Shown piece by piece: positions 4,699 through 31,018 of a stretch of DNA of 31,761 nt; the first letter of the stretch is position 1; every line of letters begins with the position of its first letter. Source of the stretch: a virus; IMG/VR virus record IMGVR_UViG_3300027722_000021, positions 1-31,761 of that record. One strand, written 5' to 3'. A program made the translations under genes and the position numbers. The notes beneath the pieces are model-generated. The model was not told the DNA's origin. It saw only the letters and a program-made list of their open reading frames with translations, and searched no databases.

Positions 4699-5774
4699 TC
4701 GAGATCCTTCTCGTCGGGGAGGTCGGCAACCCGAACGACGGGATGACGGCGTCAGAATTTGCGCGGCAACTCCGAGCCGCCAAGGGCGAGGCAGTCACCA
4801 TCCGCATTGCGAGTCCCGGCGGCGACCTGTTCCAGGGCCTCGCGATGTACGACTACCTCCGCAGCCTGCCGGAGACGACAGTGGTGATCGATGGAGTCGC
4901 GGCATCGATCGCCACCATCGTCGCCCTGGGGGCGCGCCGCGTGGTCATGCCCGCGAACGCCATGCTGATGGTGCACGCGCCGCGCGCGGAAAAGGACGGG
5001 GTCGCCGAGGAATTGCGTAGCACGGCGGACCTCCTCGACGGCATGGCGGCCAGGCTCGCCGCCATCATCGCCATGGAGACGGGGGCCCCCCTCGAGCAGG
5101 CGAAAGCCTGGCTGGAGGCCGAGACCTGGTTCAGCGCCGAGGAGGCGCTCGCCGCCGGTTTCATCGATGAGGTCGGCGCTGCCACCCCTGTCCGCAATCA
5201 AATCAATCTCTGTCGCCTCGGCAACGTGCCGGACCGGGTGAGCAGAGTTCTCACTGAGTCGGCACGCATCCCCACAATTCCCATGACCAAACTCCTTACC
5301 GCGCTGAACGACCTCCGGCTCGTCAATTGCGGCTGTGGTGGCGGCGCTGCTGCCCCGAACGAAGACGACGTTGTCAGCCAACTCAAGGCGAGCATCGCCG
5401 CCCTGGCTGCCGAACGTGACACCATCAAGGCAAAGCTCGAGGCCACCGAGACTGAACTGCAAGGGCTCAAGGGCCAGTCCGCGACCACGCTGCAAAACCG
5501 CGCCGCCATTGCCGTCGATACCGCGATTGCCGATGGCCGGCTAGCGCCCGCGCTCAAGGACTCGATGGTCGCCGCCTATGTCGCCAATGAGTTGCCCACG
5601 GTGAAGGCCCTGGCGGATCTCCCGAGGACCTCGGCGGGGACGGCCCCGGTCGCGCGCGGTTCCTCCACCGATGACGCGAATACCTTGAGGGCGCGCATAG
5701 ACAGCGAACCGGATGCGAGGAAGCGCCTCGCCATGCGGATCGGGAATTGGGACGCCCTCGTGGCGGCCGGCTGA
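4695..5774 (+). CDS. Head maturation protease (ClpP/S49 fold) with scaffold-like C-terminus
   Basis: 359 residues. Residues 1-165 form a ClpP-type serine protease: SPGGDLFQGLAMYDYL, the nucleophile in GVAASIA (S71), the histidine in LMVHAPR (H94) and a likely aspartate at D115. Residues ~197-359 differ in character: a short CGCGGG linker, then a coiled coil (SQLKASIAALAAERDTIKAK) and a helical C-terminal segment like prohead scaffolds. This matches the lambda C/Nu3 layout, where the scaffold is the C-terminal part of the protease. An in-frame ATG at 5283 (MTKLLTALNDL) lies at the domain border and could give a separate scaffold, although no good ribosome site precedes it. It sits between portal and capsid genes as expected. 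Confidence 0.9.
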   Translation: MIEILLVGEVGNPNDGMTASEFARQLRAAKGEAVTIRIASPGGDLFQGLAMYDYLRSLPETTVVIDGVAASIATIVALGARRVVMPANAMLMVHAPRAEKDGVAEELRSTADLLDGMAARLAAIIAMETGAPLEQAKAWLEAETWFSAEEALAAGFIDEVGAATPVRNQINLCRLGNVPDRVSRVLTESARIPTIPMTKLLTALNDLRLVNCGCGGGAAAPNEDDVVSQLKASIAALAAERDTIKAKLEATETELQGLKGQSATTLQNRAAIAVDTAIADGRLAPALKDSMVAAYVANELPTVKALADLPRTSAGTAPVARGSSTDDANTLRARIDSEPDARKRLAMRIGNWDALVAAG

Positions 5775-5828
5775 TTCTCCGCCCCTCCCTACTAGAAAAG
5801 AAGAGTTCACCTCCAACGACACCCCTCC

Positions 5829-6713
5829 ATGCCAAACACCTTTCCCGCCGCGCTCATCTGCAGCGTCTGCTGCGACGTTGCACTCACCGGCATCTGCCAG
5901 ATCCTGGCGCCCCTCACGAACTTTGCGAACGATTGCTCGAGCGATCCCCTTGCCCCCGGCAAACCCGTGGTCGTGCCGGTGGCTACTGCCGGCAGCAATA
6001 CCCTGACGAACCCCTCCGATTTCGAGCAGGGCGACGGCACGCTTGAGAGCCGTACTATCACCCCGGACTACGTCAGCCAGCCCTTCCACATCACGGCTCA
6101 ACAGTATCAGCAGGGCTACAGGCTGGAACAACTGGCCAAGATCAACGCGGAAGTTTTTGCCGCGGCCATCTGGGCGAAGGTCATGCCCCTCATCAAGAAC
6201 GCCGCGGCCCATGTCCCGCCCGCTCCTCCCACGGGTTTCCCGCTTGCCAATGTTCACGTCCAGGGAATCGCCGGCTTCACCCCGGCCACGGTCGGCGTCC
6301 TCTATGGGCTCCTCAAGTGCATGCCCAAGCACCTGATCCTCGATCCCGCTGCGATGTCGAAACTCCTCTACGTGGCCGGGGGGTGCTGCTTCCCGATGGG
6401 TGGATCCGGCCCGACCGGATTCGGTTTCCAGACCATTACCGAGCACACGCAATGGGCGGGAGCGGACGCGAACACCTACGGATTCGCCTTCTGCCGCGAG
6501 GCCATCGCAGTCGTGTCCGGAGTGCCAGTGAGCCCGCCCGAATGCGGGCAAATGATCGCTCAACGGAGCGTCACCCTGCCGGGTTCCGGGCTGACGGTTC
6601 AGTTCAACATGTGGTGCTCGAGCAAGACCCGGTCCGTCTGGGGCTCTTACGACATCATGTTCGGCGCCGCCCTCGGCGTCCCCTGCAAGGGCGTCCTCCT
6701 CAAGAGCGCGTAA
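5829..6713 (+). CDS. Major capsid protein
   Basis: 294 residues. Assigned by position directly after the protease-scaffold gene, by size, and by the domain flow: an N-terminal arm, FEQGDGTLESRTITPDYVSQPFHI (E-loop-like), a helix containing AKINAEVFAAAIWAKVMPLI (spine), then a mixed C-terminal half ending MFGAALGVPCKGVLLKS. It should form the HK97-fold shell. It is odd in having 12 cysteines (C11, C14, C15, C23, C36 near the N-terminus, then paired CC in GGCCFPMGG and others), far more than usual for phage capsids. The exact capsid family is not certain from reading alone. Confidence 0.82.
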   Translation: MPNTFPAALICSVCCDVALTGICQILAPLTNFANDCSSDPLAPGKPVVVPVATAGSNTLTNPSDFEQGDGTLESRTITPDYVSQPFHITAQQYQQGYRLEQLAKINAEVFAAAIWAKVMPLIKNAAAHVPPAPPTGFPLANVHVQGIAGFTPATVGVLYGLLKCMPKHLILDPAAMSKLLYVAGGCCFPMGGSGPTGFGFQTITEHTQWAGADANTYGFAFCREAIAVVSGVPVSPPECGQMIAQRSVTLPGSGLTVQFNMWCSSKTRSVWGSYDIMFGAALGVPCKGVLLKSA

Positions 6714-6735
6714 CGGCTCAAGGGGACCTTCGTCC

Positions 6736-7170
6736 ATGAGCCAGGCGCGCGAGTTGCTGGACGCGGGCTGGGCCGTGTCCATGGAAGAATTCGCCATCCC
6801 CTTTACGGTGGATGGCTACGGCGCCCATTCATTCTCGGGCCTGTGCGACGAGGTGCGCTACTCGAATGAACTGGGGGCCGGCGGCTTTGCCCTCGACGCC
6901 GATGCGACGATCGGCGTCGAGGTGTCGGAATTTGCAGCCGTCGGCCTGACTCCCTACCCCGGAATGCGGATGCAGGTCTATGGGGTCAACTTCATCGTGG
7001 ATCGGGTCGGCAAGAACGATCACCGCTGGAATCTGACGCTCGAGGAAGCCCAGACGAAGAAGGCCCCTGCCGGTCCGCCTCGCATCATCGTGAGCGCACC
7101 AGGATCCCGGGCAAGCCGCCTGATCCCGACCCGGGCCCTGATCTCTCAACCCTCTCCTCCGACAACCTAG
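6736..7170 (+). CDS. Head-tail joining candidate
   Basis: 144 residues directly after the capsid gene. The core (FSGLCDEVRYSNELGAGGF through YPGMRMQVYGVNFIVDRVGKNDHRWNLTLEE) is rich in beta-strands and resembles small head-tail connectors (FII-like) that begin with a recessed loop and end in a strand pair. A proline/serine-rich unstructured tail follows (~residues 115-144). No catalytic motif is present. The function is inferred from gene order and general shape; a minor capsid or decoration role is equally possible. Confidence 0.6.
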   Translation: MSQARELLDAGWAVSMEEFAIPFTVDGYGAHSFSGLCDEVRYSNELGAGGFALDADATIGVEVSEFAAVGLTPYPGMRMQVYGVNFIVDRVGKNDHRWNLTLEEAQTKKAPAGPPRIIVSAPGSRASRLIPTRALISQPSPPTT

Positions 7171-21748: not shown

Positions 21749-21863
21749 GAACCGGCGGGTGTTCCTTAACCGAAGCGCCCTCTGGCCGGCGTGTGCCGGA
21801 TTCGGAGGGGTAACAACTCAAGCCGGCATGGTCGGCCTGCCGCGGTCCCCATCCACAAAACCC

Positions 21864-22985
21864 ATGAACAATTCACCCTTCGAACCCGATGAACGATCGA
21901 CTGAAGCCGTCCCGGTGACACCCGGCGCCCTGGAGGTGATGGAGCGCGCCCAGATCGATCTGCAGATCGCCACCGCGAAGCGTTACCCGCGCACCCTTTC
22001 TCGCGTGAAGGCCGAGATGATGACCTTCGCCACCCTCGACGAAGAGACGGCCTCCTCCTGCTTCTACACGATCCCGCGCGGCGGGAAGGTCATTCAGGGG
22101 CCATCGGTGCGGCTCGCGGAGATTGCCTTCTCATGCTGGACCAATGTCCGCGCCGCCACGCGGATCCTCGAGACGGTGACCGACGGGCCGACTCCGCACG
22201 TCGTGGTGCAGTCGATGGCCTTCGACCTCGAGAAAAACACGTCGGTGATGATGGAGAAGCGGCGGCGGATCACGAAGAAGAAGAACAAGGGCGCACCCGA
22301 CGAAGATGACATTAACCTGGCCGCGAACGCCTGCGCCGCCATCGCCTTCCGCGATGCCGTTCTGAAGGTCGTGCCGAAGGCCTTGATCACGCCGGTATGC
22401 CAAGCCGCCATGCGCGTCGCTGTCGGCGAGGTCAAGAGCCTTGCGACCAAGCGCACGGCCGTCATCAAGCGCCTTAACCAAATGGGCATCACGGAGGACC
22501 GGATCCTCGCCGCCGTCGAGTGCGCCAAGGTTGACGACATCGGATTGGATCAGCTCGGCACGCTCATCGGCCTGGGAACGGCGCTGAAAGACGGAGAGAC
22601 GACCGTTGAGGAGGCTTTCCCACCCATTGCAAAGACGCAGGCGAAACCGGCGACGCCGGGGCAGGGTGAACCGCCGGACGACATCCCGATGGGATCCGGC
22701 CCAGCGACAGCGCCGCAGGCTGCACCCTCGACCGGACCGGCCGGCGACCGGCAGCAAGGGCCGATTGCCAAGCCCGAGCACGAGCAACTCGAGGCAGTGG
22801 TCGTCGGGGGCGGGTTCAACTTCGATGACTTCCGCGACTGGGCGAGCCGCACCGGGAACATCACCGACGCTGATTCCCTGGCCTCCTTCGAGGACATCCC
22901 CCCGAAGGTGGCGGCGCGAATTCTCAAGGCCAAGACCGGGCTCCTCCAGGCCCTCGCTCAAGGACGAAAGGAGGCGGTCGCGTGA
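21864..22985 (+). CDS. Conserved phage protein, possible recombination function
   Basis: 373 residues from the ATG at 21864; an in-frame ATG at 21828 lies 14 bases after a GGAGGGG and is an alternative. Residues ~20-260 form the conserved part, with FYTIPRGGKVIQGPSVRLAEIAFSCW, a motif shared by a widespread unnamed phage family, then a basic block (EKRRRITKKKNKG) and AANACAAIAFRDAVLKVVPKALI. The Pro/Gly/Ala linker (~275-325) leads to a small C-terminal helical domain (NFDDFRDWASRTGN...). Its place before a coiled-coil protein and RusA resembles recombination operons. I cannot show that it is an annealing protein. Confidence 0.7.
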   Translation: MNNSPFEPDERSTEAVPVTPGALEVMERAQIDLQIATAKRYPRTLSRVKAEMMTFATLDEETASSCFYTIPRGGKVIQGPSVRLAEIAFSCWTNVRAATRILETVTDGPTPHVVVQSMAFDLEKNTSVMMEKRRRITKKKNKGAPDEDDINLAANACAAIAFRDAVLKVVPKALITPVCQAAMRVAVGEVKSLATKRTAVIKRLNQMGITEDRILAAVECAKVDDIGLDQLGTLIGLGTALKDGETTVEEAFPPIAKTQAKPATPGQGEPPDDIPMGSGPATAPQAAPSTGPAGDRQQGPIAKPEHEQLEAVVVGGGFNFDDFRDWASRTGNITDADSLASFEDIPPKVAARILKAKTGLLQALAQGRKEAVA

Positions 22986-24079: not shown

Positions 24080-24216
24080 AGGGCGTGGCCAGGCGTGGCA
24101 TGGCGCGGTGCGGCATGGCAAGGCAAGGCGCGGCAAGGCAGGGCTCGGCCCGGTTTGGCAAGGCTCGGTGTGGCGAGGCTACATCACGACCCCTTCGCAA
24201 GAGGGGGTCGAAGTGT
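24080..24216 (+). repeat. Pentamer-hairpin module 1 (20 NNGGC units)
   Basis: Twenty uninterrupted 5-base units fill 24080-24179 exactly. In each, positions 3-4 are GG and position 5 is C or T, while positions 1-2 vary freely. The array ends with GTGGCGAGGCTACAT. A hairpin follows: outer ACAT/GTGT (24181-24184 with 24213-24216) and inner CGACCCC/GGGGTCG (24187-24193 with 24204-24210). The 3' arm GTGTGG already starts the register of module 2. There is no gene here: the open frames across it arise because NNGGC seldom makes a stop. Confidence 0.9.
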
Positions 24217-24370
24217 GGCTTGGTCTGGTTTGGCCAGGCCCGGCGGTGCCGTGCGCTGCGGGTCATGGCGTAGCCGGACGGGGCACAGCCAGGCGCGGCG
24301 CGGCGCAGCGGGGCGGGGCGGGGCTGGGCGAGGCTACACACGGCGCCGGTCAACCGGCGTCGCAGTGTGT
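24215..24370 (+). repeat. Pentamer-hairpin module 2 (24 units)
   Basis: Twenty-four units at 24215-24334 keep the 5-base register. Eight units have lost one G of GG (for example GTAGC, ACAGC), but position 5 is nearly always C. The boundary is TGGGCGAGGCTACACAC. The hairpin pairs ACACAC (24336-24341) with GTGTGT (24365-24370) and CGCCGG (24344-24349) with CCGGCG (24354-24359) around a TCAA loop. CCTTGCGGG follows, and the next gene starts 47 bases after the hairpin. Modules 1 and 2 fill the whole 351-base gap between genes. Confidence 0.9.
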
Positions 24371-24417
24371 CCTTGCGGGAGGAAACCGGAACAACTGACG
24401 GAAGGAAAAAAACACTC

Positions 24418-25041
24418 ATGCGAACCATCACAGCCACGCTCACCGGAATCCGGCCCCTGCTCCTGCACAACGGATCCCTGGTGGACCGGCGCAATCCCTA
24501 CACGACCGAGATCCGCGAGATCAACAAGACGCGTGGCAAGGACGTGACCGATGCCGCCGCTGAACGGCGCGACTACCTCGAGTGGCTCGGCTGCCTCTAC
24601 TTCGAGGGCTACGGCAGCCTCCAGCCGACCGGCAAGGCCAAGCTCTACATCCCAGCCGACAACATCGACGCCATGCTAGTCCAGGGCGCCAAGGGCGTTC
24701 GCCTGGCGCCCAAGTTCAAGGCCGGCGTCATCTGCGATTCAGGCGACTTCCCCTTGGAATGGGCCGGCCCGCAGACCTTCGAGAAGATGATCGGCAACCA
24801 GGAGTTCGAGCATCGGTGCCCGGTCATCATCGGGAAAATGCGGGTCATCAAGGTGCGGCCGATTCTCAAGCCCGGCTGGAAGCTGAAGATCTCGATCAGC
24901 GTCGCCGAGGAAGTCATTAACCCGAAGGAGGTCGCCAAGGTGCTCGTCATCTGCGGGAGCCTCGTCGGGCTCGGTGACTGGCGGCCCAAGTTCGGACGAT
25001 TCTCCGTCGATGACATCACTATCGCCAACAACGGGGGCTGA
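24418..25041 (+). CDS. Conserved phage protein flanked by the repeat modules
   Basis: 207 residues from the ATG at 24418 (GGAAGG lies upstream); a GTG at 24367 is in frame but lies inside the module hairpin. It begins TITATLTGIRPLLLHNGSLVD, carries AKLYIPADNIDAMLVQGAKG in the middle and ends VGLGDWRPKFGRFSVDDI. The family is widespread in phages without known function, as far as I recall. The opening strand with PLL.HNG and the glycine-rich C-terminal loop recall RAMP/Cas7-type RNA-binding folds, but this is only a resemblance. Pairs of pentamer-hairpin modules stand both before and after it, so it may act with or on them. Confidence 0.75.
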   Translation: MRTITATLTGIRPLLLHNGSLVDRRNPYTTEIREINKTRGKDVTDAAAERRDYLEWLGCLYFEGYGSLQPTGKAKLYIPADNIDAMLVQGAKGVRLAPKFKAGVICDSGDFPLEWAGPQTFEKMIGNQEFEHRCPVIIGKMRVIKVRPILKPGWKLKISISVAEEVINPKEVAKVLVICGSLVGLGDWRPKFGRFSVDDITIANNGG

Positions 25042-25047
25042 TTTGCC

Positions 25048-25149
25048 GCGGCGGGGCTTGGCCAGGCAGGACCCGGCCCGGCTTGGCGGGGCGTGGCCAG
25101 GCGAGGCGAGGCTACACATGGCCCCTCTTTACGGGGGGTCACAGTGTGT
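25048..25149 (+). repeat. Pentamer-hairpin module 3 (13 units)
   Basis: Thirteen units at 25048-25112, twelve with intact GG (one is AGGAC), begin six bases after the preceding stop. The boundary is AGGCGAGGCTACACATGGC. The hairpin pairs ACACA (25114-25118) with TGTGT (25145-25149) and TGGCCCC (25119-25125) with GGGGTCA (25135-25141, one G-T pair). The sequence CCTTGCGGGCA follows, the same as after module 2. Confidence 0.9.
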
Positions 25150-25161
25150 CCTTGCGGGCAC

Positions 25162-25307
25162 AAGCCAAGGCCAGGCGCGGCGCAGCCAGGTTCGGCGAGG
25201 CGAGGCGCAGCGCGGCGAGGCGTGGCGAGGCTTGGCGAGATCCGGGCCGGGCTTGGCGGGGCCGGGCAGGGCGAGGCTACACACGGCGCTTTGGAAACAT
25301 GGCGCCG
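25162..25307 (+). repeat. Pentamer-hairpin module 4 (23 units)
   Basis: Twenty-three units occupy 25162-25277, with a single extra base at 25242 after which the register resumes. The boundary AGGGCGAGGCTACACACGGC matches the others. The hairpin is CGGCGC (25284-25289) with GCGCCG (25302-25307) and a 12-base loop. The outer GTGTGT arm is missing, replaced by AAGTTTTCG. The next gene starts 28 bases on, so this hairpin may influence its translation start. Modules 3 and 4 fill the 293-base gap. Confidence 0.88.
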
Positions 25308-25334
25308 AAGTTTTCGAGGAAAGCAGGTATCGCA

Positions 25335-25823
25335 ATGAAGACCGACATCACTGATCCGGCAGTCAATCCAAAGCGACTCCCGCTTTGGAAATCGGCCTTG
25401 GAGGACCTTCGCGCCAAGGGCATCGCCTATGGTCAGACAATCCCTTTGCCGGAACTTGAGGAAGCCCTTTGCTCCCGGGATCACGAGCGAGAATTCAACC
25501 TCGCGATTTCCAAGATCCGGCGTGAACTCGAAAAGGACGGTTTCTACCTGTCGGGGCGCGGCAAGAAAGCCAGCGGCGTCTTCACGGTCATTCCCGCGAG
25601 ATCGAACTTGGGCATCGCCAAGAATCGTCAGCACCAGGCAAGCGATGAACTCGCGCGCGCCGTTGTCCTGCTCACCAACACTCTCACGGATGGCTGGACG
25701 GTGGAGGAGAAGCGCAAGCTCACGTCATCTCTCGAAAGATTGCAGACCAAGCGCGCCCTCGAAACCAAGGCCGTGAAGATCCTTGAGGTCCTCAAGACCC
25801 ACTCACCGAAACTTCTGGAATGA
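25335..25823 (+). CDS. Hypothetical early protein downstream of modules 3-4
   Basis: 162 residues. The first half (LPLWKSALEDLRAKGIAYGQTIPLPELEEALCSRDHEREFNLAISKIRRELEKDGFYLSGRG) looks like a winged-helix region. The second half is helical and charged (TVEEKRKLTSSLERLQTKRALETKAVKILEVLKTH). It has no recognised name. An AGG lies 10 bases before the ATG. Its leader contains the fourth hairpin. It overlaps the next gene by ATGA. Confidence 0.65.
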   Translation: MKTDITDPAVNPKRLPLWKSALEDLRAKGIAYGQTIPLPELEEALCSRDHEREFNLAISKIRRELEKDGFYLSGRGKKASGVFTVIPARSNLGIAKNRQHQASDELARAVVLLTNTLTDGWTVEEKRKLTSSLERLQTKRALETKAVKILEVLKTHSPKLLE

Positions 25824-27716: not shown

Positions 27717-28226
27717 ATGCCATCGCCCGCCGTCAGCTTCTGGGTCGCCGGTCATCCCCGGCCCCAGGGCAGCAAGCGGGCTTTCCCGATCCGGAAACGC
27801 GACGGCCAGGTCGTAGGCTATTCGGTCGTCGATTCGTCCGGCGAGGAGGGCAGGGCGTGGCGTAGCCAGGTCAGGGATGCCGCGGTGACGGCCTGGGGCG
27901 ACTTCCGCCCCGTTCTCAACGGCCCCATTTCAGTCGCGTTCACGTTCCATCTCCTCCGTCCGAAGGGGCATTACGGCACAGGTCGGAATTCCGAGCATCT
28001 AAAGCCTGGCGCCCCATCGCATCCCCTGGGCCCGCCCGACGTCCTGAAGCTCGCTCGCGCGGTTGAAGATTCCCTGACGTCGGTCGTCTGGAGGGACGAC
28101 GCCCAGGTCGTCTCCGAGCTCCTCCTCAAACGCTACGGCCCGACCGAGGGCGTCCATGTCGAGGTCTTCGCCGAGCCCGAAACCGTCCTGCAACTGCCCG
28201 AGGCGAGGCAGCTCGCGCTCTTATGA
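27717..28226 (+). CDS. rusA: RusA-family Holliday junction resolvase
   Basis: 169 residues, starting 15 bases after the previous stop. The N-terminal strand FWVAGHPRPQGSKRAF (G.P.PQGSKR) and the active-site block PPDVLKLARAVEDSLTSVVWRDDAQVVSELLLKRY, with paired acidic residues (D of PDV, D of VED, DD of RDDAQ), are diagnostic. RusA enzymes cut branched DNA formed in phage recombination and replication, clearing DNA before packaging. It sits directly upstream of the replication initiator operon end, consistent with this role. Confidence 0.93.
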   Translation: MPSPAVSFWVAGHPRPQGSKRAFPIRKRDGQVVGYSVVDSSGEEGRAWRSQVRDAAVTAWGDFRPVLNGPISVAFTFHLLRPKGHYGTGRNSEHLKPGAPSHPLGPPDVLKLARAVEDSLTSVVWRDDAQVVSELLLKRYGPTEGVHVEVFAEPETVLQLPEARQLALL

Positions 28227-30452: not shown

Positions 30453-30950
30453 CTACTTCGGCTCCGGCTTCGGCGGAAGTTCAGTCCATGCCCACTGAAC
30501 CAGACCGCCGCCCACTGCGACCAGAAGCCAAGCCCCAGGCTTGCTAGTGTCCGGCACTTCAGGATGCGACCCCACGTTCTGCTCCGTCACCGCAGGATAG
30601 GCCCCGCCGGGAGCAATCGGGTGGGACGGAAACGGAGGCAAACCTTGCGACGGGTGGGGCGGAATGACCGGCCCTTGGCTCGGGTACGGCGGAAGCCCTT
30701 GGCTCGGGTAGACCGGGTAGACCGGCCCTTGGGATGCGTAGGGAGGCAAGCCCTGGCTCGGGTAAGGCGGGGAAACCGGCCCCTGTGACGGATAGGGAGG
30801 CAAGCCCTGCGACGGATAAGGCGGCGCGCCGGCGATTGGATGCGACGGATAGACCGGCAGACCCTGGCTCGGATACCCCGGAAAACCTGGCAGACCTTGG
30901 TCGGGATACTGACCGCCGGGGACGGGATGACCTTGAACGATAACCCACAT
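30453..30950 (-). CDS. Proline-rich tandem-repeat protein with C-terminal membrane segment
   Basis: 165 residues. After MWVIVQGHPVPGG come about ten variations of PPYPSQGLP and GPV.P.YPSQG. A short linker and a hydrophobic C-terminal segment follow (AWLLVAVGGGLVQWAW), then TELPPKPEPK. The ATG at 30950 has AAGGA eight bases before it; an in-frame ATG at 30992 overlaps the promoter at 30990-31018 and is rejected. Pro/Tyr/Gln/Gly repeats give an extended chain; with a membrane anchor this may reach across the envelope. Related repeat-type proteins occur in many phages without known role. It is transcribed against all neighbouring genes. Confidence 0.7.
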   Translation of the reverse strand: MWVIVQGHPVPGGQYPDQGLPGFPGYPSQGLPVYPSHPIAGAPPYPSQGLPPYPSQGPVSPPYPSQGLPPYASQGPVYPVYPSQGLPPYPSQGPVIPPHPSQGLPPFPSHPIAPGGAYPAVTEQNVGSHPEVPDTSKPGAWLLVAVGGGLVQWAWTELPPKPEPK

Positions 30951-30989
30951 AAATTTTCCTTCTGTTGTGTTCGGATTTAACCGCAGATC

Positions 30990-31018
30990 CATCTACCAGA
31001 TCACGGCAGGGTCGGCAA
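30990..31018 (-). promoter_or_regulatory. Candidate promoter for the proline-rich gene
   Basis: On the - strand, TTGCCG (31018-31013) and TAGATG (30995-30990) are 17 bases apart, a fair sigma70 match. The start point would fall near 30983 and give a ~33-base leader with AAGGA before the ATG at 30950. Confidence 0.45.

Follow-up and report, generated by a model that had tools for sequence, protein, structure and literature searches.

Introduction

VIPR was recently described as a phage-encoded, CRISPR-related system of RNA-guided DNA recognition (PMC13142463; bioRxiv, April 2026, version 2 June 2026). In the published systems, the vipr gene is flanked by vrRNAs that are composed of 9-16 YNNGG repeats, in which GGY is conserved and NN is hypervariable, and a structured 3' tail; the VIPR RNP binds dsDNA via the NN dinucleotides with a 1-nt skip and represses competing phages, and the Vipr homologue of Escherichia phage SUSP1 was shown to bind GGY/NN repeat RNAs (PMC13142463). 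Seven VIPR types (I-VII) have been published, as have the accessory genes vap1-6. Two further kinds of system bear comparison with the locus reported herein. The class 1 CRISPR-Cas effectors share with it the RAMP fold (Cas7/Csm3-type) and a C-terminal G-rich loop, whereas its presumed guides are pentanucleotide repeats and no conventional repeat-spacer array is formed. TIGR-Tas resembles it in being phage-encoded and RNA-guided with tandem interspaced guide arrays, while Tas is a different protein family, reportedly found from an RNA-interaction domain of Cas9 (PMC12045711).

The window analyzed here, the whole 31,761-nt stretch of viral DNA, contains four hairpin-bearing modules, placed in pairs on either side of a gene at 24418-25041. 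Like the VIPR locus of SUSP1 (PMC13142463; KT454805), it combines a phage-borne RAMP vipr gene, flanking predicted GGY/NN RNAs, a structured 3' tail, and an adjacent putative accessory gene. We estimate the probability at about 95% that the window carries a VIPR system, in which the four modules would represent vrRNAs or their precursors, with the NNGGC run as the guide and the hairpin as the 3' tail. The locus is thus a further member of VIPR, a kind of system described in 2026.

Results

The gene between the modules encodes a Vipr-family RAMP protein

The gene flanked by the modules (24418-25041, plus strand; phrog_4652) encodes a protein of 207 aa, P0002, which matched the PDB entry 36pp "SUSP1 Vipr protein" in both profile (E = 4e-53) and phmmer (4e-20) searches and aligned with the SUSP1 gene in hhalign with a probability of 100% (E 4.9e-46). 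The Foldseek neighbours of its AF2 model (mean pLDDT 91.6) were subunits of class 1 CRISPR effectors; those of Csm, Cmr, and type VII matched with a probability of 1.00 and E-values down to 1.5e-6, and others came from types III-D and IV. The residues GDWRPKFGRF are among the invariant ones, and because of the fold match we read this segment as the putative RAMP G-rich loop (GLGDWRPKFGRF). P0002 is therefore a Vipr-family RAMP. Pfam has no family for it or for P0001, the product of the accessory gene candidate described below.

Every hairpin caps an NNGGC array

The original prediction had listed four hairpins in this region without mentioning that each of them caps the 3' end of an NNGGC run, in which a variable NN and a fixed GGC recur in a 5-nt phase; all four runs lie on the plus strand. 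The variable region of vrRNA 1 (24080-24179) consists of 20 in-phase, unbroken NNGGY units with hypervariable NN, the final GAGGC of which is also included in the tail stem. That of vrRNA 2 (24215-24334) comprises 24 in-phase 5-nt units, eight of which are degenerate (GGTGC, CGTGC, GCTGC, GGGTC, GTAGC, CGGAC, ACAGC, and GCAGC), only ACAGC and GCAGC falling within the 11 units at its 3' end (24280-24334). The vrRNA 3 region (25048-25112) has 13 units, namely 12 NNGGC and one AGGAC, and the vrRNA 4 region (25167-25277) has 14 units (25167-25236) followed by a 6-nt phase break, GAGATC (25237-25242), and another seven units (25243-25277). First-order Markov versions of the window gave no run longer than 5 units in 300 trials. 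Every one of the four modules has GAGGC as the unit adjoining its tail; in modules 2 and 3 this unit is part of the tail, since it forms pairs with the 3' side (GCGAGG/CCUUGC). Apart from the NNGGC families, no high-copy direct repeats were found at the locus, and no conventional CRISPR repeat-spacer array. An Rfam search of the window returned no match, nor did searches of the literature for pentanucleotide repeats or for NNGGC yield anything useful.

Stems and stability of the four tail hairpins

The four hairpins, all on the plus strand, were compared individually with 200 dinucleotide shuffles. T1 (24177-24221) is formed by an outer stem (24177-24184/24213-24221) and an inner stem (24187-24195/24200-24210), and T2 (24328-24376) by an outer stem GCGAGG-C-UACAC / GUGUG-U-CCUUGC and an inner stem CGGCGCCGG/CCGGCGUCG. 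The folding z-scores of T1, T2, and T3 (25106-25155) were -6.8, -4.8, and -4.3, respectively, no shuffle being equally good in any of the three cases. T4 (25271-25319) retains the inner stem without the canonical outer arm and was marginal (z -2.0; 7/200 shuffles equally good); it adjoins the ribosome-binding region of the downstream gene, the start of which (25335) lies 15 nt beyond its end.

As originally predicted, the inner stems pair in all four hairpins. Their sequences do not, as had been stated, differ completely from one another: while the 5' arms are CGACCCCTT in T1, CGGCGCCGG in T2, TGGCCCCTC in T3, and CGGCGC in T4, the first six bases, CGGCGC, are common to T2 and T4. Since modules 2 and 4 thus start with the same inner arm, the covariation claimed among the four copies is only modest, even though pairing is kept in all of them. 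The outer arm was likewise said to be shared by three of the four, and it is indeed found in T1-T3, but in two forms, UACAC/GUGUG lengthened by GCGAGG/CCUUGC in T2 and T3 and CUACAU/GUGUGG with two G-U pairs in T1. The suggestion that module 4, having lost this arm, may behave differently was borne out structurally by its z-score, and the sole alternative to a UACAC/GUGUG-type arm in T4 is the G-U-rich CGAGG/UUUCG. Tail 4 and its interrupted array probably represent a decaying or atypical guide.

The tail fold is maintained by compensatory changes in relatives

An exact-pattern search of IMG/VR for the window tail gave no match. We gathered tails from relatives, obtaining 23 distinct sequences from 12 IMG/VR loci, which were aligned by sequence alone (MAFFT) and examined for the two-helix structure taken from single-sequence folds (14 pairs, 322 pair cells). 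The window's own four tails stand outside this pair count, having a linker of 1-2 nt versus 3, with which sequence alignment shifts the outer arm. Standard pairs occupied 98.8% of the 322 cells, 10 of the 14 pairs showed two-sided changes, and cells with such changes numbered 52 as against 14.7 +/- 3.0 in shuffles (0/500). Kinship among the sequences inflates shuffle tests of this sort, and the motif used for tail collection itself holds the 3' AG and a portion of the outer arm constant. When the partners were slid by 1-3 columns as a control, pairing fell to 35-48%, and RNAalifold, applied to the same alignment, recovered both helices and added two pairs. G-U pairs were frequent in the covarying stems. 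The proposal that compensatory changes maintain a functional fold, for which homologues with broken stems had been named as the counter-evidence, is thus supported by these 23 tails. Taken together, the comparative data provide clear evidence for a predicted hairpin fold preserved by selection in relatives from other phages.

Arrays and vipr genes co-occur across viruses

A search of IMG/VR with P0002 gave 61 vipr loci, 47 of which contain arrays. In the reverse, protein-independent direction, a bare 9-unit GGCNN pattern gave at least 120 loci in IMG/VR; among the matches listed, 115 have high-entropy arrays, and a Vipr homologue is encoded in 80 of these 115, compared with neither a Vipr homologue nor an array in any of 45 control viral loci, a set smaller than that of the array loci and chosen by unrelated patterns (Fisher P about 1e-17). 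Among 5,225 units, 92% have GGC and 7% have GGT as the fixed triplet, and NN took all 16 dinucleotides. The arrays lie almost always on the same strand as vipr, and the locus G+C content spans 0.39 to 0.76, indicating that they are not a by-product of base composition.

Some of the loci deserve separate description. In L010, many guide modules stand in tandem (5589-7165), with near-identical tails and a different array in each. High-entropy NNGGC arrays together with a Vipr homologue were also found in bacterial genome assemblies (L195, L201, L257, L288, and L291), and such assemblies include MAGs of Fibrobacteres, Patescibacteria, and Alphaproteobacteria. A tRNA-like sequence with the T-arm motif GGTTCGAGTCC or GGTTCGACTCC was seen 3' of the NNGGC arrays in actinobacteriophage-type loci, namely Mycobacterium phage LittleE (L305; 3673-3867 and 5263-5322), Gordonia phage Trine (L306; 4611-4670), L067, and L078. 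ARAGORN reported an odd 'tRNA-???' at 4768-4836 of L306 and a 'tRNA-Pro' at 1719-1811 of L141 that overlaps an array. The main text of PMC13142463 makes no mention of a tRNA-like vrRNA tail.

A putative accessory gene travels with vipr

The gene downstream of module 4 (25335-25823, plus strand) encodes P0001, a protein of 162 aa that is probably the vap (VIPR accessory) product of this clade, as judged from its co-occurrence with vipr. Homologues of P0001 were found in 44 of the loci examined, 43 of which also contain vipr, a proportion that is conditional on most of the loci having been fetched via Vipr. The P0001 model (pLDDT 90.3) resembles a winged helix, after which come two long helices, and its Foldseek matches were weak, several being MarR-type regulators. 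In hhalign, P0001 showed no clear homology to the neighbour gene of SUSP1 (probability 5%) or to the Felixounavirus counterpart of that gene, and Pfam searches with P0001 homologues gave weak, implausible matches only. Searches for the P0001 family, run without a positive control, found no member among 399 genomes from the L257 phylum or 294 from the L263 phylum, and gave only one weak match in 388 genomes from the L221 phylum.

Three other genes of the window may be recorded here. A 408-aa protein (21759-22985) belongs to phrog_3657, of unknown function (E 8e-50), and shares 54% identity across 353 aa with a product of L040, which also has a VIPR locus. A RusA recombination gene lies near the modules at 27717-28226. 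On the minus strand, a 179-aa open frame (30453-30992) encodes a low-complexity repeat protein with GLPxYPSQG-like repeats.

Target searches

The four window guides were scanned against IMG/VR for eight or nine exact units with the 1-nt skip, and no full-length exact target was found there for any of them. Extension of the guide matches was at chance level except in L316 and L348. The former, a 22/24 match to module 1, lies within a bacterial-type dnaK gene and was judged a coincidence. The latter agrees at 23/24 with the 12 units that close the 14-unit run 25167-25236, the skip coinciding with the wobble position in one open frame that overlaps it; being an approximately 1% event over 28 matches and picked among several guides, it is not claimed as a target. 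In an all-against-all test of 319 guides against a small target set, the mean score at skip 1 was 6.62 versus 6.50 in shuffles, a slight excess, and skips of 0, 2, and 3 differed little from shuffles. These searches neither support nor refute the published skip code, for which a target set from the same community would be the right one.

Discussion

The assignment of this locus to VIPR rests on findings made here, namely the Vipr assignment, the RAMP fold, the arrays, the covarying tail, the array-vipr linkage, and the co-travelling putative accessory gene. The features by which VIPR is recognized, a RAMP Vipr with its G-loop, intergenic GGY/NN repeats flanking vipr, and a conserved structured 3' tail, are all present in the window. 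Despite the similar layout of the SUSP1 locus (L362), the two differ in several respects: the window Vipr is only about 31% identical to that of SUSP1, its units are GGC where those of SUSP1 are mostly GGT, its tail is a two-stem hairpin devoid of the SUSP1 tail sequence GTGGGTGGATGGTAGTAGCC..., and its vrRNAs also sit between vipr and the putative vap, P0001 being not clearly related to the SUSP1 neighbour. Counted from the sequence, module 3 with 13 units falls within the published range of 9-16 repeats, and module 1 with 20 exceeds it; modules 2 (24 units, some of them degenerate) and 4 (14+7) are irregular. The dissimilar tail, the lack of clear homology of P0001 to the SUSP1 neighbour, and these module counts weigh against the assignment.

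The position of the modules, in same-strand intergenic gaps ahead of gene starts with T4 only 15 nt before 25335, would also be expected if the hairpins were cis-acting mRNA leader elements controlling how the two adjacent genes are translated or transcribed, rather than parts of guides. Arrays of the same kind, however, occur serially away from any start codon, for example in L010, the NN positions are hypervariable while GGC is fixed, and the neighbouring protein is a Vipr RAMP whose SUSP1 homologue binds such RNAs (PMC13142463), all of which makes a leader function very improbable. We give even less credence to a DNA-level element, such as an origin, a recombination site, or a nucleoprotein-binding array, the hairpins of which would function in single-stranded DNA. 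The long, direct arrays and the nearby RusA gene could be accommodated by such an element, but the frequent G-U pairs in the covarying stems favour RNA, and the arrays go together with a RAMP-fold protein, almost always on the strand that encodes it.

A less remote alternative, though still an unlikely one, is that the guides are vrRNAs by descent at a decayed locus that has lost its function, as the degenerate units in modules 2 and 4, the phase break and broken tail of module 4, and the failure to find a target might suggest. Against such decay, all 20 units of module 1 and 12 of the 13 in module 3 are perfect, the tails of these two modules are stable, and vipr and the putative vap are intact with their invariant residues kept. 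Whether the clade defined by the covarying two-stem tail and the P0001 winged-helix accessory family constitutes an unpublished VIPR type or subtype is a more speculative matter; we regard it as possible but doubtful that it does so and that the tail-adjacent unit, with its NN fixed as GA in the four modules, has been recruited into the stem and does not guide.

By analogy with the published SUSP1 work, from which transcription, RNP assembly, the 1-nt-skip code, and repression are inferred for this locus, the GGC of each unit would anchor one Vipr subunit while the NN would read the target, and the structured hairpin tail would end the guide at its 3' side. In the published model, the Vipr subunits would assemble along the run, and the resulting RNP would bind dsDNA through pairing of the NN dinucleotides with the target, one base being skipped between dinucleotides, so that transcription, usually of a competing phage, would be repressed.

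VIPR is a very recent proposal for a CRISPR ancestor that reads DNA via a gapped code. The present locus and its relatives offer an independent, sequence-only check of its anatomy, in which arrays and vipr are found together whichever of the two is searched for first, and a clade far removed from SUSP1 shows a 3' tail whose RNA fold covaries. This covariation shows which tail positions to mutate, and the P0001 family provides a candidate accessory protein.
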